IMG/VR virus record: IMGVR_UViG_3300021962_000047
Span: 41,972-105,971 of that record
Length of the DNA: 64,000 nt
Direction: 5' to 3' (one strand)
Origin: a virus
Every line of letters begins with the position of its first letter. The first letter of the stretch is position 1. A program made the translations under genes and the position numbers. Shown here one piece after another: positions 6,374-35,616 of this stretch. The notes beneath the pieces are model-generated. The model was not told the DNA's origin. It ran no database searches and was given only the letters and a program-made list of their open reading frames with translations.

Positions 6374-7924
6374 ATGAAATTCAACAAGCATAAAAAGCGA
6401 ATAGAAGAATTGGAATTACAATTAAGTGGACAAACAAAAACAGATAAATTACCACTACCAATTCAAGAACAAAAAACCGAAACTATGAAGAAAGTAAAAA
6501 TCGAAAGATTACCTTACTCTTACTCCGCCTTGTCAAGATTTATTGACCCCGAAACAATGAACGTACACTACAACAAACATTACAAAGGGTATGTAGAAAA
6601 GTTAAACAGGGAGTTAGAAAAATTAAAAGAACAGGATTTAGAATTAGAACAAATCATAAAAGGTATCTCAAGATACAACACAACCGTTAAGAATAATGCG
6701 GGGGGAGCTTACAACCACCAATTATTTTGGAAGATGTTGTCACCAAAACAACAAAGACCATCAGGACCCGTTTACGATAAGATTGTAAAAAAATATGGGG
6801 ACTATGAAAAGTTCAAACAAGAATTTTCAAGAAAGGCAAAAAACAAATTTGGAGCAGGATGGGTATGGTTGGTTCTTACAAAAAATAATGACTTAAAAAT
6901 TATTACCACCGACAATCAGGATAACCCGTTAATGAATACCATTAATTTTGGGGGATATCCTTTGTTAGGATTGGACCTTTGGGAACACGCTTACTACCTC
7001 AAATATAAAAACAGAAGAGACGATTATATCAAAAACTTCTTTAGTGTTATCAACTGGAGTTACGTGAACTACCTATTTGATAACAAAACCAAAAAGAAAA
7101 TTAACGAATCTCGTGATGTGAAAAGTATCATTGAGGAGGGAGCATCGAGAGGTTGTAGTCCCGCTCAGGTAAACACTTATAGAGAAATCTTTAACAAAAA
7201 TTCTGAAATCAAAAAAATCTTCATGTTTGCAATTATGGATATTTTAAAAGAAGTTTTCGCTGATTTTTGGTATGATAAAGGAAAATATGCTGAAGGTGAG
7301 ATGTCAGGTGTTTATGACTATGAAAAGAAAGGTCGTTCTGTGATTAACAAATTAAACACAAACTACACGGCATTTTGTACTTTGGTTAATGATATAAACG
7401 AGGTATTAAAGAAAATGGGTGTTGACCCAATTAATATGATTAACCAATCTCCTGAACAACAAGTTAGAGAAGTAAGAAGGTTAGTCAGATATATGACGGA
7501 ATTCCGTTATAGAATTTTCAATCCAGAATCGGCAACATTTAAAAAGATTATGTCAGGATTGGATACTTCAAATCGTTTTGGTGATGAAAGAGAAATCAAA
7601 GCGGTTGTAAATATGAAAAACATATTTGGAACAAAAGAAGTATTCAAAGTGGGTGACCTTGGGAATGTTGAGGATATGTTAGGTGGGGTTGATGCTACCA
7701 TTACTAAAGATGGTGAAACCAAAACAGCACAAATCAAACCGTTTTCAACATATGAAGAAGGTGAAGATGGTAAAATTACCGTCTTTAACACAGGAAACGT
7801 AAAACCATATAAAACTGATTATTTGGTGTTCCACAACGACAGAAAAGGTACTATTGTGTTTAAAAACGATAATACTGAAATTGTTGGTGGTAATTATGTT
7901 TTCCCAAAAGAAGATATGTTGTAA
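6374..7924 (+). CDS. Fe/Mn superoxide dismutase domain fused to a C-terminal PD-(D/E)XK-like domain
   Basis: 516 residues. Residues about 45-240 match Fe/Mn superoxide dismutase: LPYSYSALSRFIDPETMNVHYNK has the first metal-ligand histidine, GGAYNHQLFW the second, and GLDLWEHAYYLKYKNRR the Asp and last His ligands, followed by a NW-x-YVN segment. The first 40 residues are a charged extension. Residues 250-390 are helical and unrecognised. Residues 400-516 contain GDEREIKAVVN, then GGVDATITKDGE and TAQIKPF, with the spacing of a PD-(D/E)XK nuclease core (helix Glu, D, Q-x-K). The SOD part is well supported; the nuclease-like part is inference. A normal bacterial SOD is about 200 residues, so the fusion is unusual. 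A late-type motif precedes it, so it may be packaged or act late. Confidence 0.85.
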   Translation: MKFNKHKKRIEELELQLSGQTKTDKLPLPIQEQKTETMKKVKIERLPYSYSALSRFIDPETMNVHYNKHYKGYVEKLNRELEKLKEQDLELEQIIKGISRYNTTVKNNAGGAYNHQLFWKMLSPKQQRPSGPVYDKIVKKYGDYEKFKQEFSRKAKNKFGAGWVWLVLTKNNDLKIITTDNQDNPLMNTINFGGYPLLGLDLWEHAYYLKYKNRRDDYIKNFFSVINWSYVNYLFDNKTKKKINESRDVKSIIEEGASRGCSPAQVNTYREIFNKNSEIKKIFMFAIMDILKEVFADFWYDKGKYAEGEMSGVYDYEKKGRSVINKLNTNYTAFCTLVNDINEVLKKMGVDPINMINQSPEQQVREVRRLVRYMTEFRYRIFNPESATFKKIMSGLDTSNRFGDEREIKAVVNMKNIFGTKEVFKVGDLGNVEDMLGGVDATITKDGETKTAQIKPFSTYEEGEDGKITVFNTGNVKPYKTDYLVFHNDRKGTIVFKNDNTEIVGGNYVFPKEDML

Positions 7925-7967: not shown

Positions 7968-9080
7968 ATGGCTATTATCATTGGAACCGAAAGAGAAAAA
8001 CTTTATACGAGAATTCGTCACCTTTTAGGAGCACCTCTTCGTGGTGTTGAGATTGAAGACGAAATGATGGATTCACTATTAGAATTGTCTGTTGAAGATT
8101 ATTCTCAATATGTTGATGACTGGTTGATTGAATCTCAATGGACATCTTTATATGGTATGGACATTGATACCCAATCTTTAACCAGAGCATTCACTACTCG
8201 TTCATTAGATTGGGAAACCCAATACACTTATGCATATTCTAAGATTGTAGGTTTACAAGCCGGTGGTCCTTGGGTTCTTAAAAAAGATTATTTTGATTTG
8301 GTTCCTAACCAACAGATATATGAAATTCCTGCTTGTCGTGAGATTAATGAACTTTTATGGTTCACCAGAGCTGAGTTAGATGCTGCGTTCTTTGACCCAT
8401 TTATGGGTGGTTTTGGAGGATTCGGTGGTGTAGGTTTAGGTGGTGGTGCCGGTTTCTCACAAATGGGAACAACTGGTAGTTACTTCATTACACCAGCATT
8501 TGATATCCTTTTAAGAATGCAAGACATCAATATCAAAAGAAGAATTATCGCTGGTGAACTAACATACCGTATTACAGCATTACCTGAGGGTAAAAAGGCG
8601 GTACATCTTTATAACGTACCTGGAGGTAAATTTGATTTTGGTAATATCGAAAACAATAGTTATCGTGTTTGGTATTGGTATTATGATACCTGTGATAGAG
8701 ATGATTGTTTACAAGCCAATCCTGATGTGGTTAGATTACCATCTGATGTACCAATTTCAGGTTTAAGATGGGATGAGTTAAACTCACCCGCAAAAACTTG
8801 GGTTCGTCGTTGGTTTACCGCATATGTTAAAGAAACTTTAGGTAGAGTTAGAGGAAAATATCAAGGAAACTTGAAAACTCCCGATAGTGAACTACAATTA
8901 GAATATGATTCCTTGTTAACGGAAGCTAAAGATGAAAAATCTAAATTACTTGAAGAATTGATGGCGAGGTTAGAAAGGCTTCGTCCTGATAAGATGATGG
9001 AAAGAGAGGCTAACGTTGCGGAACAATTAAACAAGTCATTGCAATATAGAGCAATGCCTCGTCAAATTTATGTAATTTAA
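7968..9080 (+). CDS. Putative neck protein (gp13-like)
   Basis: 370 residues. The start LLGAPLRGVEIEDEMMDSLLE followed by a VEDYSQYVDDWLIESQW helix is the pattern of gp13-like neck and head-completion proteins, which begin with a short LG-x-P segment, a helical bundle and then a beta domain. A glycine-rich loop follows (GGFGGFGGVGLGGGAG, about residues 147-162). The C-terminal 80 residues form a charged helix (LLEELMARLERLRPDKMMERE). It is monocistronic or paired with the next small gene, and lies far from the gp14- and gp15-like genes on the other strand. The gp13 assignment rests on pattern, not alignment. Confidence 0.5.
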   Translation: MAIIIGTEREKLYTRIRHLLGAPLRGVEIEDEMMDSLLELSVEDYSQYVDDWLIESQWTSLYGMDIDTQSLTRAFTTRSLDWETQYTYAYSKIVGLQAGGPWVLKKDYFDLVPNQQIYEIPACREINELLWFTRAELDAAFFDPFMGGFGGFGGVGLGGGAGFSQMGTTGSYFITPAFDILLRMQDINIKRRIIAGELTYRITALPEGKKAVHLYNVPGGKFDFGNIENNSYRVWYWYYDTCDRDDCLQANPDVVRLPSDVPISGLRWDELNSPAKTWVRRWFTAYVKETLGRVRGKYQGNLKTPDSELQLEYDSLLTEAKDEKSKLLEELMARLERLRPDKMMEREANVAEQLNKSLQYRAMPRQIYVI

Positions 9081-12289: not shown

Positions 12290-12643
12290 TCAAATGATAT
12301 TGATGTATAGTGTTTCCCTGATTGGGGCAATTAGTTCACCCATTGAATTGATAACCGAAAACTCTCCGATATATCTACCTTTTTTCTTTGTATCTCTACC
12401 CGTCCACTTATAATATATGTAATATTCAACGGGAGAATCAATGTTTGTGTCTGTTTTTGACACAATATATGCATTATTCATAAGAATTTTTGGAATACCA
12501 GTCGCTTCGTCTTTCATGGAAAAACGAATGGTAGCATTGTCTAAGTCCTCATCAAATAACCTCCATGCATTGGTTCTACCATCACGGACCACTTGCATTT
12601 TAAGGATTGGAAGCTCACTATTTTGTTTAATAAAGAATTCCAT
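12290..12643 (-). CDS. Stand-alone copy of the adhesin N-terminal domain
   Basis: 117 residues starting MEFFIKQNSELPILKM and ending YIGEFSVINSMGELIAPIRETLYINII. It is clearly paralogous to residues 1-115 of the gene at 16532-19762 (MEFFIRQNSTLPKLMV and VGRYIGEFKIVNERGEYIVPVR). The shape (strand, SLKDxxTG, strands, RYIGEF, ETLYINI) recalls N-terminal domains of baseplate upper proteins that attach receptor-binding proteins to the baseplate. The attachment role is inference. Here the domain ends just after its last strand, with no fibre or repeat fused. It has its own TATTTAT motif. Confidence 0.6.
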   Translation of the reverse strand: MEFFIKQNSELPILKMQVVRDGRTNAWRLFDEDLDNATIRFSMKDEATGIPKILMNNAYIVSKTDTNIDSPVEYYIYYKWTGRDTKKKGRYIGEFSVINSMGELIAPIRETLYINII

Positions 12644-12658
12644 AAATTCTGTTTCCTA

Positions 12659-12665
12659 ATAAATA
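12659..12665 (-). promoter_or_regulatory. TATTTAT motif before stand-alone attachment domain
   Basis: Exact TATTTAT on the minus strand, 15 bases before the ATG of 12290-12643. It sits between that gene and the end of the large repeat protein, so both large and small genes can be expressed separately. Confidence 0.6.
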
Positions 12666-12683
12666 GTTTCTTAATCTAATTTA

Positions 12684-15600
12684 TTAAGAACAGTTAGAGT
12701 AGAACGTAATATTGTTAGGTGAACAACTTGTCAAAGTATATTGACTATAGTTAGTTGCTGGAGGGTCTCCAGGGTTAGATGGTGATTGTGCATAAATGTA
12801 GTTACCTTGGACATCTGCTGCGATTTCACTATAGAAAATCGTTAATGAACACGGTGCAGGTGGGTCAACCGCACCGATTTCAACACGAACCACATCACCA
12901 ACACATGCGGATATTGTAGTTGTAGTATTCGAACCACAAGGAACACCAGTTCCAAACGAATAAACCTGAACTCCATTAACTTTAATAACTCCAAGAGTTT
13001 TAATACAACAAGTAGAACCAACAATACAGCCTTGTTTAATATGTTGAACATTTATTGTACAACATTGAGTTGTTTGAGTTGGTGTAACAGTTCTGGTTGG
13101 TGTTGGAGTCCTTGTTGGAGTTCTCGTAACTGTTTGAGTTGCAGTTTTAGTTGGCGTAGGAGTTGCAGTTCTCGTAGGTGTTGCAGTTCTCGTAGGTGTT
13201 GGAGTCGGTGTTGGTGTTGTAATAACACTCGTACATGGGTAAGATTCGGTACATGTAGCACAATCATCATAAGTAATACCACCAAATCCACCTGTAAATA
13301 CAGACCAAGTTATTGGTACATCAAGTATTTTATTTAATGTGTAACAATTATTTGAAATTCCTCCTTGTTCTGAAACATACACAATTAGACCATTATTATT
13401 ACTCACATACTCACAAATACTAGTATCTTGACTACCAAAGTAATATATTTCAAATTCACCTTCGGAACAACAATTGTCCGATAAACTAAAGTAACAATAC
13501 TCAGGACTTGTTGGAGTCGGAGTTAATGTTGGTGTTTGAGTTGGTGTAGGTGTTGGTGTCGGACACGGAGCTACATCATTACAAGCTGAACAATCGACAT
13601 ATAATGTAGTCACTTTATACTCTGCGGGTTCTGGCGTTCCCACTAAGTCATAAATTGTGTAACAAATTCCGTCAATTATAACAACATACCCTTGTAATTC
13701 ACTTCCATATGCCGTTGGAACATCAACAAATTTCACAATTTCAGTTCTTCCATCACAACATTCAATCATTGTTAATTCCCATGTAGTGTATGCAACCGTT
13801 TCGGTTGGGGTATTAGTAGGTGTATTTGTTGCGGTTAATGTAGGTGTAGCTGTTGCGGTCAACGTAGGTGTTGATGTCAACGTAGGTGTGTTTGTCGATG
13901 TTAATGTTGGAGTTGAAGTCCTTGTTGGTGTATTTGTAGCTGTTAATGTTGGAGTATTTGTCGCGGTCAACGTAGGTGTTGCCGTTGCGGTTAGTGTTGG
14001 AGTCGAAGTCCTTGTTGGAGTATTTGTGGCAGTTAACGTAGGAGTTGAAGTCCTTGTTGGTGTATTTGTTGCAGTCAACGTAGGAGTTGAAGTCCTTGTT
14101 GGGGTATTTGTTGCGGTTAATGTTGGAGTATTTGTCGCGGTTAAAGTTGGAGTATTTGTTGCGGTTAAAGTAGGAGTTGAAGTTCTTGTCGGAGTATTTG
14201 TTGCGGTTAAAGTAGGTGTTGAAGTTCTTGTCGGAGTATTTGTCGCGGTTAAAGTAGGTGTTGATGTTAATGTTGGAGTATTTGTTGCAGTCAACGTAGG
14301 TGTTGATGTTAATGTTTGGGTTGGTGTAGGAGTAACTGTTCTTGTTGCCGTTAACGTAGGAGTGTTTGTCGCTGTTAGTGTAGGTGTTGATGTTAATGTT
14401 TGAGTCGGTGTAGGAGTAACTGTTCTCGTTGCAGTTAATGTAGGTGTACTGGTTGATGTAAGTGTTTGTGTTGATGTAACTGTTTGAGTTTGTGTTGGAG
14501 TAACCGTTCTCGTTGCGGTTAATGTTGGAGTACTAGTTGAAGTCAACGTAGGTGTTGAAGTCAATGTAGGTGTGCTGGTAGATGTTTGTGTTGGAGTACT
14601 TGTTAAAGTCGGTGTGTTAGTTGCAGTTAATGTTGGAGTAGATGTTAGTGTCTGAGTATTAGTAGGTGTAACCGTTCTGGTTGATGTTAATGTCGGTGTG
14701 TTAGTTGGTGTTTGAGTTGGCTGTGCAGTCAATGTAGGTGTCGCAGTTGAAGTCAATGTAGGTGTTGAAGTCAACGTAGGTGTACTTGTTGAAGTTAAAG
14801 TTGGAGTATTAGTTGCGGTTAATGTGGGAGTATTTGTTGATGTTAAAGTAGGTGTAGATGTTAATGTTTGAGTTAAAGTTGGCGTTTGTGTTGGAGTAGA
14901 TGTAACTGTTTGTGTCGGTGTCGGAGTTGGACATGTAAATGTAGTACCCGCAACTGCATCACCATCTACATCAGTTACAATATTGATTTGTGTTGGGTCA
15001 CTTATTCTTTGAATATATAGGCTTGGACCTCCGTATAATGAAATTAATTCACTATAAATGTAAGGTGTTAGATTACCATCTGAATATAATGTTTCACCTT
15101 CAATTACAGGGTGGTCATTATCATAAATTACAATAGTTGATGGTGTACCATAACATAAATCATTTAAACTATTTGATATATAATAGTTTTCAGCATTTTG
15201 AATTTGAGTTGGTGTTGGTGTAGATGTTTGAGTGCTCGTAGGGGTTGGAGTATTTGTAGAACTCAATGTCGGAGTAGAAGTTAATGATTGAGTCGGTGTT
15301 GGTGTAACTGTTCTTGTTGAGGTTAATGTAGGAGTATTAGTTGCGGTTAAAGTAGGTGTACTAGTTAAAGTAGGTGTTGAGGTCGAAGTTAAAGTAGGTG
15401 TGTTAGTTGATGTTAATGTTGGCGTATTAGTTGAAGTTAATGTTGGCGTTTGACTCTGAGTTTGTGTATTAGTTGGAGTAACAGTTCTTGTTGATGTCAA
15501 AGTAGGTGTTGACGTACTTGTCAATGTTGGAGTACTGGTCGTTGTTGGCGTTGAAGTGCTCGTCTGAGTTGGAGTATTAGTAAGTGTTTGAGTTGGAGTT

Positions 15601-16469
15601 GCAGTTAATGTTTTAGTGGCTGTTACTGTTTGAGTATTTGTTGGTGTTAAAGTTAAAGTACTTGTTAAAGTAGGTGTTGAAGTACTTGTTAGTGTTGGCG
15701 TTTGAGTTAAAGTAGGAGTTGAAGTACTTGTTAATGTTGGAGTACTTGTTAATGTAGGTGTTGAAGTACTTGTTAGAGTTGGCGTTTGAGTTAAAGTAGG
15801 TGTTGACGTACTTGTCAATGTCGGAGTACTTGTTAGAGTTGGTGTTGACGTACTTGTCAATGTTGGAGTACTCGTTAAGGTTTGAGTATTCGTTGGGGTT
15901 AAAGTGGGTGTTTGAGTTAAAGTAGGTGTTGAAGTACTTGTTAAAGTAGGAGTTGAAGTTAATGTAGGTGTAGATGTACTAGTTAAAGTTGGTGTGCTTG
16001 TTAATGTCGGTGTTGAAGTGCTTGTTAATGTTGGTGTAGATGTACTTGTTTGAGTCGGAGTATTAGTCGGAGTATTAGTAGATGTTAATGTCGGTGTCGA
16101 AGTGCTTGTTAAAGTTGGTGTTGCGGTACTCGTTTGTGTTGGAGTGTTTGACAAAGTCGGAGTACTCGTCAATGTAGGAGTTGACGTACTAGTTTGAGTA
16201 GGAGTATTTGTGAGTGTTTGAGTTAATGTTGGGGTGCTAGTTAATGTTGCAGTTAAAGTTGGTGTTGGTGGAATAATATGAATATATGTTTTATCATAAT
16301 AAGGAACATAAATTTCATAAGTACCTGTAAAATGAGGCGCAATATAATTAAAAGGCATTGTAAGCGTACCTAAATCAGATGGGTCACCACCTTCATCAGA
16401 CAAATACGTAACCTGAACTGTAAAACCACTTAGGTTTTCACTTAAAAATCTAATACCTTCTCCCGCCAT
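12684..16469 (-). CDS. Thr/Pro-repeat adhesin-like protein with cysteine-rich modules (1261 aa)
   Basis: 1261 residues, no signal peptide. An N-terminal beta domain (1-70) opens it. A Thr/Pro/Ser repeat stretch (units such as [14 protein letters not shown]) runs from about residue 73 to 425. A globular module follows (about 428-510: [27 protein letters not shown]), then a second long repeat to about residue 900. After that come two CC-x(n)-DC-x2-C modules joined by short Pro/Thr linkers and a cysteine-rich C-terminal domain ([13 protein letters not shown] onward). Two modules resemble modules of the next two upstream genes. Such stiff Thr/Pro stalks with knobs suggest a tail fibre or adhesin, which is inference. 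The stalks would be natural O-glycosylation targets. Confidence 0.75.
13785..16266 (-). repeat. Coding tandem repeat region encoding Thr/Pro stalks
   Basis: Nearly all of this stretch except 14932-15205 (a globular module) is made of variable 18-24-base units encoding T-[SA]-[TN]-T-P-T-L and similar. Codon changes between copies show long coding constraint. There are no spacers. The repeats are long and similar enough to allow copy-number change by recombination or slippage. Confidence 0.85.
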
Positions 16470-16482
16470 TTTTTATTTTATA

Positions 16483-16489
16483 ATAAATA
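16483..16489 (-). promoter_or_regulatory. TATTTAT motif before 1261-aa adhesin gene
   Basis: Exact TATTTAT on the minus strand, 13 bases before the ATG, with an A-rich leader (TATTATAAAATAAAAA). Confidence 0.6.
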
Positions 16490-16531
16490 TTACCTAATCT
16501 TATAATCCCATTTTATTTTTTAGTAATTTCT

Positions 16532-19500
16532 TTATATACAATAGAACCATTTATTATTTAAGTAGTTGTGTGTTACAGATAATTCTGAAGGTGTCAATAC
16601 TCTATTCCACAATAATACCTCATATATAAATCCACCGTAGTAATATCTGAATGATGATGTCCCTGTTCTATCAACACCAATATATAGTGTATCTATGGAT
16701 GCATTTGTTGATGTACCAACATTTGATAAGAATGTTAATGATTCCTGAACTCCGTCAATATAGAATTTAAGCTTGTCAGCATTTGTAGATTGTGTACCAT
16801 CAAATACCATAGTCCACATATGTGGGTTTAAATCGGCGATTTGGGATGTCTGAGCTAAACCATTTGCAGCTCCTACAACAAATGTACCACCACTTAATCT
16901 TAAGTTAGAATTGTTAGTGGATACGTTACCGATACCAGATGTGATAAATTGTTGTGTGGTACCAGTATTTACCAATTTACCTAAAACAATTGCAGTAAAC
17001 CCTGTGATAGCCGCAATAGATGTTAATGGGTTAACACTCAAGCCATCAGATGTCCCATCAAATTTAACAGCACTTAATCCACACTGTACATTGGTCCACC
17101 ACGCAGGTCTGGTTGTGGCACCTCCGATTGGGTTGGCATTATGTGCACTTGCAGATGAGTCATACCATTGAGTAAAGGTATCACCACTCACAGGTGTTGG
17201 GTTAAAGTTAGTATCTAAACTTGCGTCATAATAAATTTGTAGAGTTGGGTCTGACGGTACAACCGCCTGTGTTGCGGTTAATGTTAAAGTTGGTGTTGGT
17301 GTAAGTGTTTGAGTAATAGTAACCGTTTGTGTTAAAGTAGGTGTTGGAGTTGGAGTTAATCCGCCAAGTGTTTGTGTTGGTGGCAATGGTGTAGAAGTTA
17401 TATCATTAGTCGGAGCCGGCGTAAATGTTAATGTTTGAGTTGGTGTTAAAGTTGGAGTTGAAGTACTTGTTAATGTCGGAGAACTTGTTAAAGTTGGGGT
17501 TGAAGTACTTGTTAATGTCGGAGAACTTGTTAAAGTTGGGGTTGAAGTACTTGTTAATGTTGGTGTAGGTGTCGGTGTAGTCACAATAAATGGACTAAAA
17601 TCTACAATAACCGGACACTCACATTCTGAGGTATCCACACTAATCACACCAAATGATTGAACACATTCACCAGGTTGTAATACACCACTTAAATTAAATG
17701 TATGTACGTGGTCATTAAATGACATAGTTTCTGAACCATAGAACACAGTTCCCATATCACCACGAGCAACACCTGAAATAACATAATCACATAGAGCATT
17801 GGCATTACTTGTAAATCCACTATCGTTATATAACTTTATTGAGAAGTTAGAACATCCTCCTAATTCAACCTGAAGATATTGTGTAGTTACCGGACAACTT
17901 GGAGTATTAGTTAACGTTGGTGTATTTGTTAAGGTTGGTGTACTGGTTGAAGTTAAAGTAGGTGTTGAAGTTAAAGTAGGTGTTGACGTACTAGTTAAAG
18001 TCGGAGTAGAAGTTAAAGTAGGTGTTGATGTGCTCGTTAGTGTTGGTGTCTGAGTTAAAGTAGGTGTTGAAGTACTTGTTAATGTAGGAGTGTTAGTTAA
18101 TGTAGGTGTATTGGTTGATGTTAAAGTAGGTGTTGACGTACTAGTTAAAGTAGGTGTAGACGTACTTGTTAGTGTCGGCGTTTGAGTTAATGTCGGAGTA
18201 TTTGTAGGTGTTGGTGTAGGAGTTGGACAAATTTGGTCCACACCACAAACCGATTCACCATCAACATTATTAACTATATTAATTGTTGAACCACCAACCT
18301 TCTTAATGTAGAACGGAGTTCCACCAGCAATACTCTCTAAATCAACATACGGATATGGTGTTAATAAACTATCTTGATATAATGTTTCACCCTCAATAAC
18401 GGGATGGTCATTATCATAAATTAAAATAGTTGGATTTTCTCCATAACATAACGAATCTAAACTATCTGAAATATAATAGAAATCAGCATTTTGTACTTCA
18501 GTCGGTGTAGGTGTTGATGTTAATGTTGGCGTGTTCGTTGCAGTCAACGTCGGAGTTTGGGTCAACGTAGGAGTTGAAGTACTTGTTAAGGTTGGTGTAC
18601 TTGTAAGTGTTGGAGTATTAGTTGACGTTAATGTCGGAGTTTGAGTCAACGTTGGTGTCGAAGTACTTGTTAATGTCGGAGTTTGAGTCAGAGTCGGAGT
18701 TGAAGTACTTGTTAAAGTTGGGGTACTTGTTAATGTCGGTGTATTAGTTGAAGTTAAAGTCGGAGTACTTGTCAACGTAGGAGTTGATGTACTTGTCAAT
18801 GTTGGAGTTTGTGTTAAAGTAGGTGTAGAAGTACTTGTCAACGTAGGAGTACTTGTCAGTGTTGGTGTGTTAGTTGAAGTTAATGTAGGAGTACTGGTTA
18901 GGGTTGGGGTATTAGTTGCGGTTAAAGTAGGGCTACTTGTTAGGGTAGGCGTGGGTGTACTTGTTAAGGTAGGACTCGGTGTAGGTGTTTGAGTTGGTAT
19001 ATTAAAGATATACCTGAAAGTATAAACATAATTGTAAATTGTACTACCTGAATTAACGATACTAACATTACTAATACCACTGGTGTAATTCAATAAAGAA
19101 TAATTTGTGGTTGCACTTAATTGAGTCCCACCTGATAATGAACCCGCACCGAGTTCGATTGTAGGTTCAAACACCAATGACGAACCATTTTGTAATCCAA
19201 GAGTATTGTTAAAATTAATAACAACTGTATTATCTACAGTTCCATCCATGGTTGCCGAATATGATGCAAATACAGAACCCGCGGTGTATGTTCCAACAAT
19301 ATCAATAGTTCTAGTATTGATTAATGTTGGAGTTGGTGTTGGCGTTCTTCTTGGAGTTTCTGTTGGTCTAACAAAAGGAGTTACACCTTTATTTGGTCTA
19401 CAACACGTATCACTATCTGCGAACGATTCAATTATATTAACATATAATACATTCCTAACAGGAACAATATATTCACCTCTTTCATTAACAATTTTAAATT

Positions 19501-19762
19501 CACCAATGTATCTACCAACTTTAGATGATGTTTTTTTGTTGAATTGATAATAAACAGAATAACCTGAACCATCTTCATTGATAGTTACACCCGCAGGAAC
19601 ATTAGCTAATCTATAAATTCCTGTATCAACATCTTTAAGTGAGAATGTAACTGTAGACGCTGACAAATATTGGTCGAGCTGATGATACCCATTTCTCGAT
19701 TCATTTATTACCTCAACCATCAATTTAGGTAATGTACTATTCTGTCTTATAAAAAACTCCAT
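16532..19762 (-). CDS. Thr/Pro-repeat adhesin-like protein with attachment and lectin-like domains (1076 aa)
   Basis: 1076 residues. Residues 1-115 are the same domain as 12290-12643. A beta domain follows (about 150-260), then a Thr/Pro stalk with a YYISDSLDSLCYG / [14 protein letters not shown] module (about 428-510) also present in the 1261-aa protein. A second stalk leads to a domain opening CPVTTQYLQVELGGC. The C-terminal 230 residues resemble a LamG/concanavalin-type lectin fold: LQIYYDASL, VKFDGTSDGLSV, MWTMVFDGTQ, KFYIDGVQE and a YGGFIYEVLLWNRVLTPSE ending. LamG-like domains in phage fibres bind sugars, so this protein is the best candidate in the locus for surface-glycan recognition. 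No TATTTAT motif precedes it; it is likely co-transcribed with 19776-22562. Confidence 0.75.
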   Translation of the reverse strand: MEFFIRQNSTLPKLMVEVINESRNGYHQLDQYLSASTVTFSLKDVDTGIYRLANVPAGVTINEDGSGYSVYYQFNKKTSSKVGRYIGEFKIVNERGEYIVPVRNVLYVNIIESFADSDTCCRPNKGVTPFVRPTETPRRTPTPTPTLINTRTIDIVGTYTAGSVFASYSATMDGTVDNTVVINFNNTLGLQNGSSLVFEPTIELGAGSLSGGTQLSATTNYSLLNYTSGISNVSIVNSGSTIYNYVYTFRYIFNIPTQTPTPSPTLTSTPTPTLTSSPTLTATNTPTLTSTPTLTSTNTPTLTSTPTLTSTSTPTLTQTPTLTSTSTPTLTSTPTLTSTNTPTLTSTPTLTSTSTPTLTQTPTLTSTSTPTLTQTPTLTSTNTPTLTSTPTLTSTSTPTLTQTPTLTATNTPTLTSTPTPTEVQNADFYYISDSLDSLCYGENPTILIYDNDHPVIEGETLYQDSLLTPYPYVDLESIAGGTPFYIKKVGGSTINIVNNVDGESVCGVDQICPTPTPTPTNTPTLTQTPTLTSTSTPTLTSTSTPTLTSTNTPTLTNTPTLTSTSTPTLTQTPTLTSTSTPTLTSTPTLTSTSTPTLTSTPTLTSTSTPTLTNTPTLTNTPSCPVTTQYLQVELGGCSNFSIKLYNDSGFTSNANALCDYVISGVARGDMGTVFYGSETMSFNDHVHTFNLSGVLQPGECVQSFGVISVDTSECECPVIVDFSPFIVTTPTPTPTLTSTSTPTLTSSPTLTSTSTPTLTSSPTLTSTSTPTLTPTQTLTFTPAPTNDITSTPLPPTQTLGGLTPTPTPTLTQTVTITQTLTPTPTLTLTATQAVVPSDPTLQIYYDASLDTNFNPTPVSGDTFTQWYDSSASAHNANPIGGATTRPAWWTNVQCGLSAVKFDGTSDGLSVNPLTSIAAITGFTAIVLGKLVNTGTTQQFITSGIGNVSTNNSNLRLSGGTFVVGAANGLAQTSQIADLNPHMWTMVFDGTQSTNADKLKFYIDGVQESLTFLSNVGTSTNASIDTLYIGVDRTGTSSFRYYYGGFIYEVLLWNRVLTPSELSVTHNYLNNKWFYCI
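17240..19010 (-). repeat. Coding Thr/Pro tandem repeats in 1076-aa adhesin
   Basis: Repeat blocks at about 17270-17580, 17898-18225 and 18500-19010 encode units [20 protein letters not shown] and TQTPTL. They are interrupted by the globular modules of the protein. Some neighbouring copies are almost identical at DNA level, for example the copies of TTGAAGTACTTGTTAATGTC around 17460-17560. Confidence 0.8.
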
Positions 19763-19775
19763 CTACTTACTATAA

Positions 19776-22562
19776 TTATAAACAAGGGTTATCATTTATA
19801 CAATCAGCACAATCTGTATATACTGGTGAATCAATATAAAGTACATTACTACCAGGTGATATAGGACCAATTGGTCCAAAAAGTACCGTTATATAATAAC
19901 ACTTACCTTCATATTGGATTATATCACCAACATTCAATATTGACGTACTATTAATTGAATCTAGTAATGAGTCACCATCATCACAACAACTTAATGCCGT
20001 CATATCTCCATACCCATAAACACATTCATTTTCCGATGTACATTCAACACACGTTTCATAAACGTTAATTACAGTTAAACCTAATGGAGGTCCAATTGCT
20101 GGTGTTGGAAGAGTAATAATCTCAAAACATTGGACAAACCCATCATGTTCTATAGTAACAATATCACCAAGATTTAAAGTTGTAAGGGAACTAATAATCT
20201 CAATAGGTTCTTCCCATCCATCTATACAACACGATTTTAATGTTCCAACCTCATAATTGTAATATACCGGTTGTGAAAGTGTTGGTGTAGGTACTGGTGG
20301 TGTATATGTTGGTGTTGGCACCGGAGGTGTCTGTGTCGGAACTAACGGTGTTGACGTAACATCATTTGTCGGTTGAGGTGTAAATGACAATGTAGGTGTC
20401 ATCGTAGCCGTCAACGTAGGTGTCATTGTCAACGTCGGTGTTTGAGTTTGAGTTGGATATAAGATTACATTAACATCAACCTCACAATTTTCATCCGTTA
20501 CATTAAAGTTGAAATCACAATTTGCATCAATAATATTAAATCCAAAATCACATTCGATATCATTAATTGCATAATCAAATCTACAAGTGACTGTATCAAC
20601 ATTGAAGTCGAAATAACATTGTGACAATATCTCCAAACAGTTTGGACACCAATAATCGAATAAATTAAATCGGTCCTTCAATACCCTGAAGTTGTGTTGG
20701 ATTTGAGATGAATCCAATGGTTCAACATACATTCTGAATTGAGATATACCCCCCATAAAGGTTCCACCAAAATTTTGTTCCATCAAAATATCGGTTGTCA
20801 ATCCAGATAATGAGGTACCTGACAAAGTATTGTTCGGCATCAATTCAGGGTCCTGAATATATGGACCATAACGGTCTTCACAATTTTGGAAGATTAAACT
20901 CTCACGAAGACCTTGAGTACCACCACCCCATGAAATGTTAAACGGAACTCCGATTTGTTTTTCACGTTGGGTGTTTAACTCACGAGGAATAATTTCTTCA
21001 AAATCTTCGATAACCATAAACAGGTAACCGTTAACATATAAACGAAGAACACCTCTTCTATCTTCAACTTGTCTTAACCATTTTCTGTTAAGTTCAATAA
21101 CTTCTTCAGGTAATTCTTTTTTACCACCCTCGTGTGTTTGAGGGGGTTGAATAAGGTTTACCGTGGCACCATAGGTTTCAGAAGAATATACGTATTCGCG
21201 TATGTCTCCCAATCCCCCTTTATTTAATAGGTCACATCCGTCGTACCACCTATATCGGTCAAAGACAGCTGTTAACATTACCCATCTTTCTTTTGTTCTT
21301 TCGGCTTCAGAAACAGGATAACCACAAACATCATAGATACCACGAGATGAACATATCTCATTAATTGTATATCCCGAACAATATGTCAACCCAGTTGTTT
21401 CACATGTTCCCGTTGTGACGCAATCACCCGTTAACTTAATGTATTTAACACATAATCGTGGGTTTTTAGGGTCACCACTCAAACGAATAGACATTGCATT
21501 TGAGAATACATCCATCGCTGGGTCAACAGGTGGTTCAGGAACCTCTGTATTGTATGAACAAAACGGACCAATATTGTGTTGAACAGTTGTTGCGGTTTGA
21601 GGGTAAACCAACAAACAATGAGATAATGTATTTGCGGTGTCGGCACATCCGCATGTTTTAATACAATCAGTTAAACCTGATGTAACTCTTTGGTATTCCC
21701 ATTGTGTTCCACCCGACGTATCAAAATCAAAATCACATTTGAAATTCTCAGGAGTTTGAGTTAAACCAGAGGCTGGATGATAAAATTTATTTTCAGCACG
21801 AGTACCAAAGAAAAAGAATGTTCCCGCATTTTCAGGGTAAACTGTGTTTAGATATGTCTGGTGTTGTTCACGGATATGGTATTCATCTACCTGACGTGGT
21901 TTGATAACCGTCTCCATTGTCCACCCCTTATTAACCCTTTCAGGGAAAACTTCATAATCGTAACCATGTAATTTGTAGAAACCCTGAAAAAATCCACCAT
22001 ATAATTCTTGGTAATAACCAACTTGGCTATCCTCCTTACTCATTATATTATAAATGGTTTCTTTTGGGTTACCTGAAAATCTAACATTTGGGGGGTTGGT
22101 GTAATCATACACCTGTCTCATCTTAAATCTTCGGTCGTAATAATGGGGGTTATAAGTCATAAACTCATCAATACCCATCGTATAATATAGTGTTTGACCT
22201 GTCATGTATTGATACATTCCTGTATCAATCATTGTGAGACCCGCATCACATAATCCAGTATATCCTTTATAACAATTTAAATCTTCATTGTTTGGATTAT
22301 AATAGTTTTTAGATGTGGCAGTATTTCCTGAATTAAAATTACCCCAATAAAGATAATCTTTTGGGTTTGACGCAGCGGAATTTAAGTCAATATTGATTGG
22401 TAAAATGTTACCATTCGTTTCGGCAATTAGATAATTTGAAAATACTACTTCCTCGTCGTAATTTTTTTCATCCGACGCTAAAGTTAAGTCAAAGTATTCA
22501 CTATTATCTAACTTTATATCAAATCTATTAAAGTTAAAATTGTTAATGTTTTGAGTTGCCAT
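19776..22562 (-). CDS. Large virion structural protein with C-terminal cysteine modules (928 aa)
   Basis: 928 residues. Residues 1-650 are a novel, cysteine-containing, aromatic-rich domain; a segment near residue 510-530 (GVLRLYVNGYLFMVIEDF) and NFGGTFMGGISQFRMYVEPLD near 620 suggest a LamG-like sheet, as in other phage fibre proteins. Residues about 648-700 carry a short tandem 11-residue repeat beginning with Cys. A Thr/Pro linker follows, then two CC-x(n)-C-x2-C-x4-C modules similar to those of the 1261-aa protein. It starts the minus-strand adhesin unit and has a TATTTAT motif. It is probably the base or largest member of the fibre; no family is recognised. Confidence 0.7.
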   Translation of the reverse strand: MATQNINNFNFNRFDIKLDNSEYFDLTLASDEKNYDEEVVFSNYLIAETNGNILPINIDLNSAASNPKDYLYWGNFNSGNTATSKNYYNPNNEDLNCYKGYTGLCDAGLTMIDTGMYQYMTGQTLYYTMGIDEFMTYNPHYYDRRFKMRQVYDYTNPPNVRFSGNPKETIYNIMSKEDSQVGYYQELYGGFFQGFYKLHGYDYEVFPERVNKGWTMETVIKPRQVDEYHIREQHQTYLNTVYPENAGTFFFFGTRAENKFYHPASGLTQTPENFKCDFDFDTSGGTQWEYQRVTSGLTDCIKTCGCADTANTLSHCLLVYPQTATTVQHNIGPFCSYNTEVPEPPVDPAMDVFSNAMSIRLSGDPKNPRLCVKYIKLTGDCVTTGTCETTGLTYCSGYTINEICSSRGIYDVCGYPVSEAERTKERWVMLTAVFDRYRWYDGCDLLNKGGLGDIREYVYSSETYGATVNLIQPPQTHEGGKKELPEEVIELNRKWLRQVEDRRGVLRLYVNGYLFMVIEDFEEIIPRELNTQREKQIGVPFNISWGGGTQGLRESLIFQNCEDRYGPYIQDPELMPNNTLSGTSLSGLTTDILMEQNFGGTFMGGISQFRMYVEPLDSSQIQHNFRVLKDRFNLFDYWCPNCLEILSQCYFDFNVDTVTCRFDYAINDIECDFGFNIIDANCDFNFNVTDENCEVDVNVILYPTQTQTPTLTMTPTLTATMTPTLSFTPQPTNDVTSTPLVPTQTPPVPTPTYTPPVPTPTLSQPVYYNYEVGTLKSCCIDGWEEPIEIISSLTTLNLGDIVTIEHDGFVQCFEIITLPTPAIGPPLGLTVINVYETCVECTSENECVYGYGDMTALSCCDDGDSLLDSINSTSILNVGDIIQYEGKCYYITVLFGPIGPISPGSNVLYIDSPVYTDCADCINDNPCL

Positions 22563-22576: not shown

Positions 22577-22583
22577 ATAAATA
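22577..22583 (-). promoter_or_regulatory. TATTTAT motif before 928-aa structural gene
   Basis: Exact TATTTAT on the minus strand in AAAGTATTTATAGTTAA, 14 bases before the ATG. It is divergent from the plus-strand motif at 22596, with 12 bases between them. Confidence 0.65.
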
Positions 22584-25097: not shown

Positions 25098-26306
25098 ATG
25101 TCCAAAATAAAAGTATTAGTATTACCATCCGATAAAACAGGAGTTGGTAAATTTCGTTCACTCGACCCACACATTTTTTTACAAACAAAATATCCTGAAG
25201 ATTTTCACGTTGATATCGATTATGAACCTCGGGTTAATGATATCAATTATTGGAAACAATATCATATTGTACATTTTCACAGAACCATCTTTCCTGATTA
25301 CGATGCCAGTGCTAAAATAATTAGAAACCTTAATCAAATGGGTATCGTCACTATTATGGATATTGACGACTATTGGATGCCAACAAAGGAGCATCCTGTT
25401 TATCATTTAGTAAACGAATCTAAATTGAATTTAAAGATTGTTGAGAATATAAAGGCAGCTCAATACGTTACAACTACTACTGAAATTTTTGCTCAAGAAA
25501 TTAAAAAACATAATAAAAATGTTTTCGTATTACCAAACGCAATAAATCCTGACGAACCTCAGTTTAAAGAACCAACACAACCTTCAGATAAAGTACGTTT
25601 TGGTTGGTTAGGTGGTTCATCTCACTTACATGACTTAATGTTAATGAATGGTTCATTTAACAGATTAGAACCCCTTAAAGATAAATTTGAAGTTTATTTA
25701 TGTGGTTTTGATATTAGAGGCACTGTTACGGAAATTAATCAACAAACAGGTGAAAAAAGACAAAGACCAATTCAACCAAACGAAACCGTATGGCATCAAT
25801 ATGAACAGATATTCACAGCAAATGGTTTGTTAATAACACCTGAACACCAAGAATTTTTATCTAAATTTAAAGATGAAGAGTGGAATGGTGAATCTGTATA
25901 TCATAGAGTTTGGACAAAACCTGTAACCTCTTACGCTAAAAACTATTCAAAATTTGATGTATCATTAGCACCAATTAAAGACCATATTTTTAATAGAGCT
26001 AAATCACAACTTAAAGTTATTGAGGCTGGGTTTTATAAGAAAGCAATAATAGCATCTAATATTGGTCCTTACACAATTGACTTGAAACATTCATTAGAAA
26101 ATGGTAACTTTGTTGATGGAAACGCATTGTTAGTTGATGAACGTAGAAATCATAGTGATTGGTCTAAGTTTATGAAAAAATTAATCGACAACCCATCTTG
26201 GGTTGAAGATTTAGGAAATAGATTATACGAAACAGTAAAACCAAAGTATGATTTAAATGTAGTCACAGAAACAAGAGCTCAACTTTACAAACACTTAGCA
26301 AAATGA
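25098..26306 (+). CDS. Glycosyltransferase, GT-B type
   Basis: 402 residues. The N-terminal half has a Rossmann-like pattern with a conserved GVGKFR start and HIVHFHRTI, then YVTTTTEIFAQEI and VLPNAINPDE, as in GT4-type enzymes where the chain turns into the second domain. The second half has VRFGWLGGSSHLHDL, then SLAPIKDHIFNRAKSQLKV and EAGFYKKAIIASNIGPY, where the acceptor and sugar-nucleotide binding Glu-containing loop of GT-B enzymes sits. It transfers a sugar from a nucleotide donor; donor and acceptor cannot be read. It is the first gene of the glycan cluster and overlaps the next gene by four bases. Confidence 0.8.
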   Translation: MSKIKVLVLPSDKTGVGKFRSLDPHIFLQTKYPEDFHVDIDYEPRVNDINYWKQYHIVHFHRTIFPDYDASAKIIRNLNQMGIVTIMDIDDYWMPTKEHPVYHLVNESKLNLKIVENIKAAQYVTTTTEIFAQEIKKHNKNVFVLPNAINPDEPQFKEPTQPSDKVRFGWLGGSSHLHDLMLMNGSFNRLEPLKDKFEVYLCGFDIRGTVTEINQQTGEKRQRPIQPNETVWHQYEQIFTANGLLITPEHQEFLSKFKDEEWNGESVYHRVWTKPVTSYAKNYSKFDVSLAPIKDHIFNRAKSQLKVIEAGFYKKAIIASNIGPYTIDLKHSLENGNFVDGNALLVDERRNHSDWSKFMKKLIDNPSWVEDLGNRLYETVKPKYDLNVVTETRAQLYKHLAK

Positions 26307-27004
26307 TTAATATACCTATTACAAAAATTTTATTTATTGACATCGAAACTGTAGGTGCCGCACCTGATTTTGATGGGTTGGAAAAAGTTTATCCCGAATT
26401 GTCTTATCAGTTTAAAAATTATCTCGATTGGTTTGAAAAGAGATTTCCTGAACATGCAGGAAAGGGTCCTAATGAGATGTTTTACAACAAAGCAGCATTA
26501 GTATCTGAATTCTTAAAAATTGTATGTGTCAGTGTTGGTTTCGTAGACCCAACAGGAGAAATAAAGATGCAAAGTTTTTATGGTGATGACGAAAAACAAA
26601 TTTTAAAAGAAACTCAAAATTTATTAAAAAGAATTGGTAAACTCGGATTTCACCTTTGTGGTCACAACGTTAAAGGATTTGATATTCCCGTATTGGCAAA
26701 ACGAATGGTTATCAACGGAATCAAACCACCTGAAATTCTTCCAAATCACGATACTAAACCATGGGAAATTAAAGCTCTCGATACCAAAGAACTTTGGCAG
26801 TTTGGAAGCTTCTCAACTATCGGTTCGTTAGAATTGATGTGTATTTGTATGGGTGTTGAATCATCAAAAAATATGGAAGTGGTTGGTAACAAAGTTCACG
26901 AAGCATATTGGATTGATGGTAAATTGGAACAAATTAAAGATTATTGTGAAAAGGATGTTGAAGTCCTTATAAATGTTGTACGTAAATTTTATGAATTGTC
27001 ATGA
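26303..27004 (+). CDS. DnaQ-like 3'-5' exonuclease (PolB-exonuclease type)
   Basis: 233 residues. Exo I is FIDIETVG (about 10-17), Exo II is GHNVKGFDIPVL (about 119-130) and Exo III is YCEKDVEV (about 214-221), so all three acidic metal-binding motifs are present. It resembles the stand-alone predicted exonucleases related to family B polymerase proofreading domains. The genome also carries a polymerase with its own exonuclease, so this one may serve in repair, primer processing or degradation. It overlaps both neighbours (ATGA type). Confidence 0.85.
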   Translation: MINIPITKILFIDIETVGAAPDFDGLEKVYPELSYQFKNYLDWFEKRFPEHAGKGPNEMFYNKAALVSEFLKIVCVSVGFVDPTGEIKMQSFYGDDEKQILKETQNLLKRIGKLGFHLCGHNVKGFDIPVLAKRMVINGIKPPEILPNHDTKPWEIKALDTKELWQFGSFSTIGSLELMCICMGVESSKNMEVVGNKVHEAYWIDGKLEQIKDYCEKDVEVLINVVRKFYELS

Positions 27005-27597
27005 TTAACAAAATAAAAGGAATTAAAGATAGTATTAAAATGTTGACGGAATTACAAGAAAATTCCGCAAACATGGATTTAAATAAAATGATGTCAAATA
27101 TGGGTATCGATATGGAAACCCTTAATAAAGAATTTGAAAAATCTTTTGAGTTTGATAAAACAATAGATTTAGAATATACATTCAAATCGGTAAACCCTGA
27201 ACCATCATACGCATATCCAACAGATTCTGGTTTTGATTTAAGAGCCAATGAGAATGTAAAATTTTCGGGTTTTGAAAGAAAATTAGTATCAACGGGTTTG
27301 TTTGTTAATATCCCAGAAGGGTATGAAATTCAAGTAAGACCAAAAAGTGGTTTAGCACTAAATAAAGGTTTGTCAGTTTTAAATACCCCAGGTACGGTAG
27401 ACCAAGGTTATACTGGCGAAATTAAAGTAATTGTAATCAATATGTCTAATCTACCACAGGAGATTAAGATTGGAGATAAAATTGGTCAAGCAGTTTTATG
27501 TCCTGTAGTTGCGGGTAAATTCGTTAATCTAAAACGAGTTTTAAATGTAGAGGAAAAAGACAGAGGAGATAATGGATTCGGCTCAACTGGAAATTAA
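27001..27597 (+). CDS. dut: dUTPase (dUTP diphosphatase)
   Basis: 198 residues. All five trimeric dUTPase motifs are visible: SGFDLRA, RPKSGLAL, NTPGTVDQGYTGE, KIGQAVLCPV and RGDNGFGSTG. The enzyme turns dUTP into dUMP, keeping uracil out of phage DNA. Before the fold there is an unusual N-terminal extension of about 60 helical residues (usual length is about 150). Start and stop overlap both neighbours. No sign of loss of function. Confidence 0.95.
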   Translation: MINKIKGIKDSIKMLTELQENSANMDLNKMMSNMGIDMETLNKEFEKSFEFDKTIDLEYTFKSVNPEPSYAYPTDSGFDLRANENVKFSGFERKLVSTGLFVNIPEGYEIQVRPKSGLALNKGLSVLNTPGTVDQGYTGEIKVIVINMSNLPQEIKIGDKIGQAVLCPVVAGKFVNLKRVLNVEEKDRGDNGFGSTGN

Positions 27598-27985
27598 TAT
27601 GGAAAATATTAGCCCTGTACTACCTGAAGGTATTAAAAATTACCTTATTGATATTGACGGAACAATTACCGATGATATCCCAAATGAAGAACCATGGAGA
27701 ATGCTCGACTCATTACCATATGAAGGGTGTGTTGACATTATTAATCAATGGTACCAAGAAGGACACATAATTACATTTTTTACATCAAGAACTGAAGAAC
27801 ATAGAGCGGTTACTGATACGTGGTTACAAAAAAATGGATTTCAGTTCCATCATCTTTTAATGAATAAACCTCGTGGCGGTAACTATCATTGGATTGATAA
27901 CCATATTGTGAGAGCAACTCGATATAATGGCAAATGGACACCAATGACTACCGTAACCACGGACATACAAGTTTTTGGAGAATGA
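27572..27985 (+). CDS. HAD-superfamily phosphatase-like protein
   Basis: 137 residues from the ATG at 27572, or 128 if the ATG at 27599 is used (just past the dUTPase stop). LIDIDGTITDD is HAD motif I with both Asp residues; HIITFFTSRTEEHR carries motif II Ser and a motif III-like basic patch. HYHWIDNHIV resembles motif IV with one Asp. Such small HAD proteins are usually nucleotide or sugar phosphatases. The position among sugar genes and dUTPase leaves both open. Confidence 0.7.
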   Translation: MDSAQLEINMENISPVLPEGIKNYLIDIDGTITDDIPNEEPWRMLDSLPYEGCVDIINQWYQEGHIITFFTSRTEEHRAVTDTWLQKNGFQFHHLLMNKPRGGNYHWIDNHIVRATRYNGKWTPMTTVTTDIQVFGE

Positions 27986-29361
27986 TTACAATTGGGTATA
28001 GTACAAAAAAAATTGACCCGTCGTTTAAGGAATATATTACAAAATCAGTTGGGTTACCAAATGTGGAAGTTATTCCATTTGAAAATCCGGGAACACACTC
28101 ATTAACTGAAGCTTATAATATTATTTTAGAACAATCATCAAATGATATCGTGGTATTGTGTCACGATGACATTTATTTTGAGAATAACAACTGGGGTAAT
28201 AAAGTATTAAAACACTTTAAACGCAATCCTGAATATGGAATTATCGGTGTTGCCGGTTCTAAATATATGCCTCCATCAGGTAGATGGTGGGAAGTACAAA
28301 CAGAAATGTTTGGTATTGTAAATCACGAACACGAAGGTAGAAAATGGACATCAAAATATAGTGAAACTAAAAATAGTAAATTAGATGACACTATCATTGT
28401 TGATGGACTTTTTATGGTCTTAAACAAAAAGAACATTAAAACAAAATTTAATGAAGAGGTAAAAGGATTTCATTTTTATGAAATAGATTTTTGTTATAGA
28501 AACTTTTTAAATGGTGTTAAAATTGGTGTTTTTTATGATGTTAGAATTACTCATAAATCAATTGGTATGACCAATGAACAATGGGAAAATAATAGACAAC
28601 AATTCACCGAAACATTTAAAAATGATTTACCTAAAATCATTCCAACAGAATTTGATAAAAAACAAATTAAAAAGAATGAACCACTGGTTACTATTGCAAT
28701 GCCAATTTATAACTACGCAAAAAGATTGAACCATACGTTATTATCTATTTTTAATCAGGATTACACCAACTTTGAAATTATCATAGTCAACGACGGGTCA
28801 ACCGATGAGTATTGTTTAATGAAATTAAAAACATTAGAAGGTCAAGAAGGTATTAAGATAATTCATAAAGATAATGGTGGAGTATCATCAACAAGAAACC
28901 GTGCCGTTAGAGAAGGTAATGGTGAATATGTACTACCATTAGATGCTGATGATATGATATTACCAGGATACATAAAAACGGGTGTTGCGATACTAAAAAA
29001 TAATCCTAAAATAAGTCCCGTTTATTGTGATACCATCCATGTTGGTGAGATGCAAGGTTTAGAAAAAAGACCTGAATGGAGCAATGAACGACTTTTACAA
29101 GGACCATTTATCGTAAATAGCTCTTTATACACAAGAGATGCTTACAACGAGGTTGGGGGTTATGATGAAGAATTACAGGGTTGGGAAGATTATCACTTTT
29201 GGTTGAAAATGATGAAAAAAGGATATGTCGGAAAACGTATCCCTAAAGGTTTATTTATTTATTTTCATCACGAAAAAGATGGTTCAGTTTCTACGGAAGC
29301 GAATACTAATCAACAAATGTTGTATAATAAAATAATGGATAAATTATCAACATATGAATAA
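27982..29361 (+). CDS. Two-domain glycosyltransferase (GT2 type)
   Basis: 459 residues from the ATG at 27982, which overlaps the stop of the HAD gene as ATGA; an earlier in-frame ATG lies inside that gene and is less likely. The first 220 residues resemble a GT2-like domain (NDIVVLCHDDIYFEN with a D-x-D-like site, and HFYEIDFCYR). Residues 225-459 are a typical GT2 domain: LVTIAMPIYNYAKRL, FEIIIVNDGSTDE, VSSTRNRAVREGNGEYVLPL, LDADDMI and a QGWEDYHFWLKM region with the catalytic-base ED. It could add two different sugars. Likely target: virion or host-surface glycan, by inference. Confidence 0.85.
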   Translation: MITIGYSTKKIDPSFKEYITKSVGLPNVEVIPFENPGTHSLTEAYNIILEQSSNDIVVLCHDDIYFENNNWGNKVLKHFKRNPEYGIIGVAGSKYMPPSGRWWEVQTEMFGIVNHEHEGRKWTSKYSETKNSKLDDTIIVDGLFMVLNKKNIKTKFNEEVKGFHFYEIDFCYRNFLNGVKIGVFYDVRITHKSIGMTNEQWENNRQQFTETFKNDLPKIIPTEFDKKQIKKNEPLVTIAMPIYNYAKRLNHTLLSIFNQDYTNFEIIIVNDGSTDEYCLMKLKTLEGQEGIKIIHKDNGGVSSTRNRAVREGNGEYVLPLDADDMILPGYIKTGVAILKNNPKISPVYCDTIHVGEMQGLEKRPEWSNERLLQGPFIVNSSLYTRDAYNEVGGYDEELQGWEDYHFWLKMMKKGYVGKRIPKGLFIYFHHEKDGSVSTEANTNQQMLYNKIMDKLSTYE

Positions 29362-29968
29362 TATGCAAAATTATAAAATACTTGGAGTAGGACACCCTAG
29401 AACAGGAACGGGTTATACATCAAAATTATTATCTAGTTTTGGATTCTCTGTTGGTCATGAAACATTGCAAAATGATGGGATTGTGGCATGGCAAGTTATG
29501 TTATCATCTAAAGATTTTAAAAATGGAATACCGTGGGTATATCCAAAAATTGATTACGACAAAATTAATTTTGAAACTATAATATATAACACTCGAAATC
29601 CACTAAACAGTATACCATCTATTGTTTATACTGAAAATCCATCTTTGAGTGATAGAAAAACCATTGTGGATTTTTCAGAGGCATCAAACCCAGTCGAGAT
29701 GGCAATAATTTCAATTTGTACTTTTGATACTTTAATCAAAAATAAGTATAAAAACCTTATTCAATATCGTGTTGAAGACGAACAAGAAAAATTGTTCAAT
29801 TTACTGTCAAAAAAATATGAAATAAATCCCAATTATAATCTACCACCATCGAGTTATAATTCAAGAAAAAATAGAATAGGAAAAATCGATTATTCGGTAG
29901 TTAGACCAAAATTTCAAGAAATGATTAATAATTATTGTTTGGAATATGGATACCCAAAAATCTTTTAA
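29354..29968 (+). CDS. Sulfotransferase-like protein A
   Basis: 204 residues. GHPRTGTGYTSKLLSSFG matches the 5'-phosphosulfate loop of PAPS-dependent sulfotransferases, and YNTRNPLNSIPSI matches the 3'-phosphate-binding R-x7-S-like motif. The family moves sulfate from PAPS to sugars or other alcohols. At 204 residues it is near the short end for the family, but both cofactor motifs are intact. It overlaps the glycosyltransferase gene by eight bases, which suggests sulfation of a sugar made by the neighbours. Start ATG at 29354; a second ATG at 29363 would also fit. Confidence 0.75.
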   Translation: MNNMQNYKILGVGHPRTGTGYTSKLLSSFGFSVGHETLQNDGIVAWQVMLSSKDFKNGIPWVYPKIDYDKINFETIIYNTRNPLNSIPSIVYTENPSLSDRKTIVDFSEASNPVEMAIISICTFDTLIKNKYKNLIQYRVEDEQEKLFNLLSKKYEINPNYNLPPSSYNSRKNRIGKIDYSVVRPKFQEMINNYCLEYGYPKIF

Positions 29969-29970
29969 TT

Positions 29971-30612: not shown

Positions 30613-30620
30613 GAAGTTAA
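30587..30620 (+). other. Stem-loop at end of sulfotransferase B
   Basis: TTAACTTCTT at 30587-30596 pairs with AAGAAGTTAA at 30611-30620 over a 14-base loop. The stop codon lies in the loop end. No T-run follows, so it may be a weak terminator or an mRNA-end structure. Confidence 0.3.
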
Positions 30621-30687
30621 AACATATACATTAAATCTTTAATATTCTTAAGGTTTAAACTATTATTACTATGATAATTTAAGCTTT

Positions 30688-32933: not shown

Positions 32934-32955
32934 AATAAACAATAACAAAATATAC

Positions 32956-34548: not shown

Positions 34549-34550
34549 AA

Positions 34551-35615: not shown

Positions 35616-35616
35616 A

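Follow-up and report, generated by a model that had tools for sequence, protein, structure and literature searches.

A recombining locus of modular proteins on alternating threonine stalks, probably adhesion fibres, in a large T4-like aquatic phage

Gene content and layout of the locus

The window, which is the whole stretch of 64,000 nucleotides analysed here, spans positions 41972-105971 of a virus record 105,971 bases long. The source virus is a large T4-like aquatic phage. The window carries T4-type genes for the capsid (gp23-type), terminase (gp17-type) and portal (gp20-type); the capsid and terminase have matches in more than 1200 phage records each, and the portal matches phrog_213. The closest cultured phages, the Flavobacterium immuto phages and Microcystis phage Mel-JY01, are distant. 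The locus lies on the minus strand, where the transcription order is D (928 aa), C (1076 aa), B (1261 aa), A (117 aa) and DNA polymerase. All four open reading frames (A-D) are uninterrupted at the coordinates first given for them, and their features are as follows.

22577..22583, minus strand: TATTTAT promoter-like motif, 21 nt before D
20628..22562, minus strand: conserved core of D, residues 1-645, putative anchor (31-sequence alignment)
20469..20627, minus strand: tail of D, short C-x-F-x-F repeats (alignment)
20274..20468, minus strand: stalk of D, Thr/Pro rich, about 65 aa, absent from many relatives
20022..20231, minus strand: CC module 1 of D, residues 778-847
19782..19988, minus strand: CC module 2 of D, residues 859-927
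19418..19762, minus strand: N-terminal MEFFI domain of C, putative Ig-like anchor, 43% identical to A (alignment of 46 domains)
19004..19300, minus strand: module d2 of C, residues 155-253
18485..19003, minus strand: stalk 1 of C, alternating Thr-X
18236..18484, minus strand: YYIS module of C, residues 427-509, 58% identical to the B copy
17879..18235, minus strand: stalk 2 of C, alternating Thr-X
17597..17878, minus strand: module d3 of C, residues 629-722
17264..17596, minus strand: stalk 3 of C, the least regular, Thr at 78% of alternate positions
16535..17263, minus strand: terminal lectin-like module of C (ConA/LamG-like, weak)
16483..16489, minus strand: TATTTAT promoter-like motif, 20 nt before B
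16281..16469, minus strand: N-terminal domain of B (B_N), putative third anchor, in seven loci including the window
15192..16280, minus strand: stalk 1 of B, about 360 aa, Thr at 97% of alternate positions
14937..15191, minus strand: YYIS module of B, residues 427-511
13791..14936, minus strand: stalk 2 of B, about 380 aa, Thr at 99% of alternate positions
13563..13760, minus strand: CC module 1 of B, residues 904-969
13233..13472, minus strand: CC module 2 of B, residues 1000-1079, the most diverged copy
13065..13232, minus strand: stalk 3 of B
12687..13064, minus strand: terminal Cys-containing module of B
12659..12665, minus strand: TATTTAT promoter-like motif, 22 nt before A
12290..12643, minus strand: gene A, the MEFFI domain alone (model pLDDT 85.6)

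The preliminary description of this DNA had overlooked the conserved core of D, the B_N domain (63 residues, recurring in relatives) and the lectin-like module at the C terminus of C. When the whole A-D proteins were compared with Pfam and PHROGs, there were next to no matches; phrog_15511, a family of unknown function, aligns with the stalk and, in B, also with the CC region. Among 50,697 phage records, no match was found to D, A or the C-terminal modules of B, and the lectin-like module of C had four weak matches only. For the latter module, Pfam gave nothing over the cut-off, the Sialidase N-terminal domain being below it at E 0.067. Its comparison by hhalign with the Laminin_G_3 module of a relative gave an E of 3e-4 and a probability of 39%, over the C-terminal half only; the Laminin_G_3 modules of that relative match PF13385. 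Elsewhere, the lectin-like module is carried by C in locus L001 and by D in L118, a phage of 321 kb; L117 has it in the corresponding position. In L102 (12646-14166), the tip module of the C protein shows weak similarity to reprolysin-type metallopeptidases. Structure prediction of D reached a pLDDT of 37 with no fold obtained, and a profile comparison of D with the lectin modules found no similarity.

The 205-aa plus-strand open reading frame at 13786-14403 is the antisense of a B stalk. We rejected it as a gene and regard it as a by-product of the stalk repeat.

Modules shared among the large genes

It had been proposed that the large genes have building blocks in common. This was confirmed: YYIS is present in B and C, CC in B and D, and MEFFI in A and C. 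First, the YYIS module occurs in both repeat proteins, as described. Second, MEFFI is found both alone, as gene A, and fused, as the N-terminal domain of C. Finally, the CC module was correctly assigned to the 1261-aa and 928-aa proteins, but the C-x4-C spacing reported for it was wrong; the expression C-x2-C-x4-C has no match, and the tail of the module is C-x2-C-x5-C. Four copies exist, two in B and two in D, and by phmmer the D1-D2 and B1-D2 pairs are significant, with B2 marginal only. Judged from the sequences, the sharing of YYIS and CC is beyond chance, because YYIS matches between B and C at an E of 3e-33 (58% over 89 aa) and of the 126 window ORFs only B and D have the C-x2-C-x5-C pattern, which shuffling produced in 4 of 4000 stretches.

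YYIS alone and CC alone, searched as fixed patterns against viral contigs, found no relatives; weak relatives of both exist within the loci collected with A and D, described below. A search of bacterial genomes with a single MEFFI pattern found no relative.

A fixed frame with variable content in related loci

With A and D as queries, 114 loci were collected. About 40 non-redundant viral loci hold the frame D-(variable)-A-DNA polymerase, in which the position of A beside the polymerase is conserved. The order is constant wherever D, A and the polymerase share a contig, and variation lies between them or on the D end. The D core is present in all relatives with this frame, at 46-69% identity to the window in the 31-sequence alignment; the number of C-x-F-x-F units in the D tail differs among relatives. 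The length of D ranges from about 626 aa to 2013 aa, and C ranges from a bare MEFFI domain (about 125 aa) up to 1767 aa.

Invariance among close relatives, which the preliminary description had named as one of the results that would speak against its reading, was not found. Bare and long C are set against each other at polymerase identities of 93-95%: L001 and L002 differ in this way (polymerase 93%, D 95%), as do L017 and L024 (polymerase 95%, D 87%) and L092 and L102 (polymerase 94%, D 93%). On a polymerase tree of 19 loci, the bare or long state of C changed at least five times.

Alternating Thr-X stalks

The stalks had been described as up to 350 Thr/Pro residues long. The length was borne out by the two long stalks of B (about 359 and 378 aa), but 'Thr/Pro' falls short of the composition, which is a strict alternation of Thr-X. 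In five of the six stalk stretches, Thr occupies 95-99% of alternate positions; in the sixth, it occupies 78%. In the two B stalks, it is at 97% and 99% of alternate positions and nearly absent between them, where Pro, Ser, Leu, Ala, Asn and Gln are found. Across composition-defined stalks of the window and its relatives, the probability of Thr two residues after a Thr was 0.74, compared with 0.04 at the next residue. The relatives' stalks, selected by a script that itself favours the register, keep that register with Val/Ile in place of Leu and Ser for some Thr. Codon use is mixed, with all four Thr codons and both Ser families represented, indicating that the alternation is held at the protein level. 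The repeat periods of the stalk DNA are nearly all multiples of 6 nt. The ratio of even to odd indels between relatives was 141:15 in stalks and 29:40 in modules, counted with an aligner that favours even lengths and over pairs that are non-independent. We consider the alternating Thr-X stalk an unusual fibre design.

A plus-strand block at 25098-36420 holds glycosyltransferase, UDP-sugar dehydrogenase, epimerase and sulfotransferase-like genes, and GT2 genes are in most relatives' records. The stalks might be mucin-like, with each alternating Thr/Ser glycosylated by these phage enzymes to give a stiff, protease-resistant rod. The hydroxyl at each second residue and the swapping of Thr for Ser in register among relatives are in line with this idea, as is the presence of the GT2 enzymes and their companions in the window. 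However, GT2 genes occur in bare-C and long-C records alike, with no co-occurrence, and the glycosyltransferases may act elsewhere. We regard a mucin-like stalk as unlikely; it would be compatible with the adhesion fibres that we favour.

Evidence for recombination

Locus L010 equals L107 base for base over 8.1 kb: the identity spans the left flank and D and ends within C, at nt 8126 of L010. The point of divergence is C residue 1307, inside the stalk at 1297-1360, beyond which the right arms differ. The A gene and polymerase region of L010 is mostly 97-100% identical to L009 and about 75-86% to L107. Between the L107-like and L009-like parts lies a zone that fully matches neither parent. In the pair L019 and L107, the flanks are 98-100% identical and the C-terminal module of C is replaced, with junctions near stalks.

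Exchange also reaches across genes. Module 8 (296 aa) shows 88-95% identity in loci that share 56-62% in their D genes, and it rides on three carriers: MEFFI carriers (C), D (L147 and L148) and a third carrier (L105). At 54-62% identity, it is also seen in the stalk-less phages L157-L170, inside an 857-aa protein (MLHEYIVTLHNKDD...). For the window itself, the D and polymerase trees conflict significantly in AU tests, which rejected a grouping of its D with L001/L002 (p=1.7e-5) and of its polymerase with L017/L024/L085 (p=1.6e-4). The proposal of a modular, recombining locus is thus strongly supported by bare and long C, swapped C-terminal modules, a module on three carriers and conflicting trees.

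Since the contigs are metagenome assemblies, single mosaics of the L010 type could be chimeras. The middle zone of L010, matching neither parent, argues against a simple two-template chimera. We also considered whether the apparent shuffling as a whole is mostly an assembly artefact of the repeats, which can misjoin contigs; the deletions in L123 look like such a misassembly. Yet what is present or absent in many independent samples is entire genes, and their flanks are coherent; modules are shared at 88-95% and not at 100%, which a misjoined single template cannot yield, and the tree conflict concerns whole genes, the window included. A general artefact is therefore very improbable.

The DNA repeats had also been thought to drive length change. 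This was upheld in part: one contig pair, 98.7% identical at the nucleotide level, has three 6-nt stalk indels, and the L010 crossover falls in a stalk. On the other hand, the stalks do not differ at all among six contigs of the L118 population, and rapid slippage is thus not general. Compared with these six, L123 lacks 80 nt in a stalk and 149 nt in the lectin module, which breaks the frame; we considered it as a repeat-length variant and set it aside, since it is probably a misassembly and possibly a real variant.

A crossover that begins in a stalk, together with the L019/L107 junctions near stalks, would also be expected if the stalk served DNA exchange and not protein structure, its repeats being selected as recombination sites. 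Against this stand the varied Thr/Ser codons, the modest DNA identity between units, the protein register that is kept, and indels that preserve the two-residue register. We judge this explanation improbable.

The TATTTAT motif and expression

The window has 33 copies of TATTTAT, both strands counted. Of 60 genes, 17 have the motif around the start; nine of the 17 have it at -20 to -22, among them A, B, D, the portal, a prohead protease-like gene and neck genes. It is missing from the glycosyltransferase block of the window. Gene C lacks it and starts about 13 nt past D. TATTTAT resembles a late promoter element, apparently the main one in this phage, and its positions support co-expression of A, B and D with virion genes. 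The plus-strand gene at 6374-7924, with the motif at -21, encodes a 516-aa protein in which both Pfam halves of an iron/manganese superoxide dismutase domain are present.

The MEFFI domain as a candidate anchor

The MEFFI model, built from 46 sequences, has a pLDDT of 85.6. Its top three matches in VIA were phage proteins, 6v8i_AN (80alpha baseplate, Z 8.4), 9mt4_H (8.3) and 9m8o_P (8.2), the second-best being the Bas63 connector and the other the NF5 baseplate. From the chain length and PMC7048315, chain AN of 6v8i is probably FibU. Antibody domains matched at Z 7.9, within 0.5 of these baseplate and connector matches. The top Foldseek match in the PDB is a baseplate protein. In BFVD, a set of viral predicted structures, MEFFI has 42 matches at E<=1e-3; a protein annotated as BppU_N, from Sinorhizobium phage phiM12, matches at 1.2e-3. 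By profile, MEFFI and the BppU-type/FibU N-termini showed no homology (hhalign, 0.3%), and PF10651 (BppU_N) had no Pfam match in A-D or in 13 records. The predicted fold is Ig-like, and the link to baseplates is only suggestive. Such a fold fits a role in attachment.

Ig-like folds decorate phage heads and necks too. The proteins may accordingly be Hoc-like or whisker-like decorations, with the Ig-like anchor on the capsid or neck and the modules binding environmental glycans or particles. The second-best structural match of MEFFI being a connector protein is consistent with such a place, as are the head-tail adaptor-like gene close by (7968-9080) and the lack of a recognised tail gene beside the locus. 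The top Foldseek and best VIA matches are nevertheless baseplate proteins, though tied, and lineage-specific swapping is typical of receptor-binding proteins (PMC10684548). We consider head or neck decoration somewhat unlikely.

A model of interchangeable adhesion fibres

The locus probably encodes virion-borne adhesion fibres made of interchangeable parts, which are exchanged partly within the stalks. The three anchors (the D core, MEFFI on C with its paralogue A, and B_N) would attach the proteins to the particle. The long stalks, with a hydroxyl at every second position, would be extended and hold small binding modules off the particle, where they may adhere to host cells and thus serve the host recognition first proposed for the locus. 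The phages would retool by gain, loss and exchange of stalk-plus-module blocks through homologous recombination. The homology for this would lie in the conserved flanks, D on one side and A with the polymerase on the other, and at least once in the stalks themselves.

A bolder form of these adhesion fibres is possible, and we put it forward only tentatively. The Thr-X stalks would be a universal connector, and the tip modules would move among the three anchors by stalk recombination, with displays present or absent between siblings; the stalk may then be a phage-made mucin-like rod.

Swapping of recognition domains is already known in phages, but the usual evidence is a comparison of scattered pairs. 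In this case, fixed anchors, a common stalk grammar and exchangeable tips are seen across dozens of related contigs, and at least one junction can be placed to the base. How large uncultured phages alter adhesion thus becomes directly testable in population long-read data.

Comparison with known systems

In the gp38 adhesins of T-even phages, hypervariable segments lie between glycine-rich motifs. The likeness is that conserved low-complexity stretches part exchangeable recognition segments. However, no sequence relation is seen, and the proteins here are far larger and multi-module.

FibU, the upper fibre of 80alpha, is dispensable; its N-terminus is Ig-like and its shaft is predicted to be like collagen (PMC7048315). 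It may serve as a working analogue of the locus proteins, with no kinship claimed. Like FibU/FibL of 80alpha and the BppU fibres of TP901-1 (PMC7048315), the proteins here combine an N-terminal domain, predicted to be Ig-like, with a low-complexity fibre and distal domains. They differ in that the stalk is alternating Thr-X and not collagen (FibU) or a coiled coil, and in that the phage is T4-like, with two further anchors and a stand-alone copy of the anchor domain; no sequence relation was found.

Mosaicism of phage receptor-binding proteins joins highly similar fragments to unrelated ones (PMC10684548). The mosaics of that study, which include tail fibres and proteins with N-terminal Ig-like domains, resemble this locus in having similar fragments beside unrelated domains, and we found high-identity shared fragments in just this setting. 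In contrast, here one module rides on three carrier genes of one locus, and close relatives differ in having or lacking entire displays. Metaviromic islands of marine phages, defined by read recruitment, hold variable host-recognition genes in conserved genomes (PMC3909814). They share with this locus a fixed N-terminus, lineage-specific repeats and a variable C-terminus, whereas the example in that paper has T7-like fibres with no alternating Thr stalk, threonine being unmentioned there. We conclude that the locus belongs with the mosaic receptor-binding proteins (PMC10684548) and the metaviromic islands (PMC3909814), and that it is a distinct variant of them, marked by three carriers, presence or absence of whole displays and the alternating Thr-X stalk.
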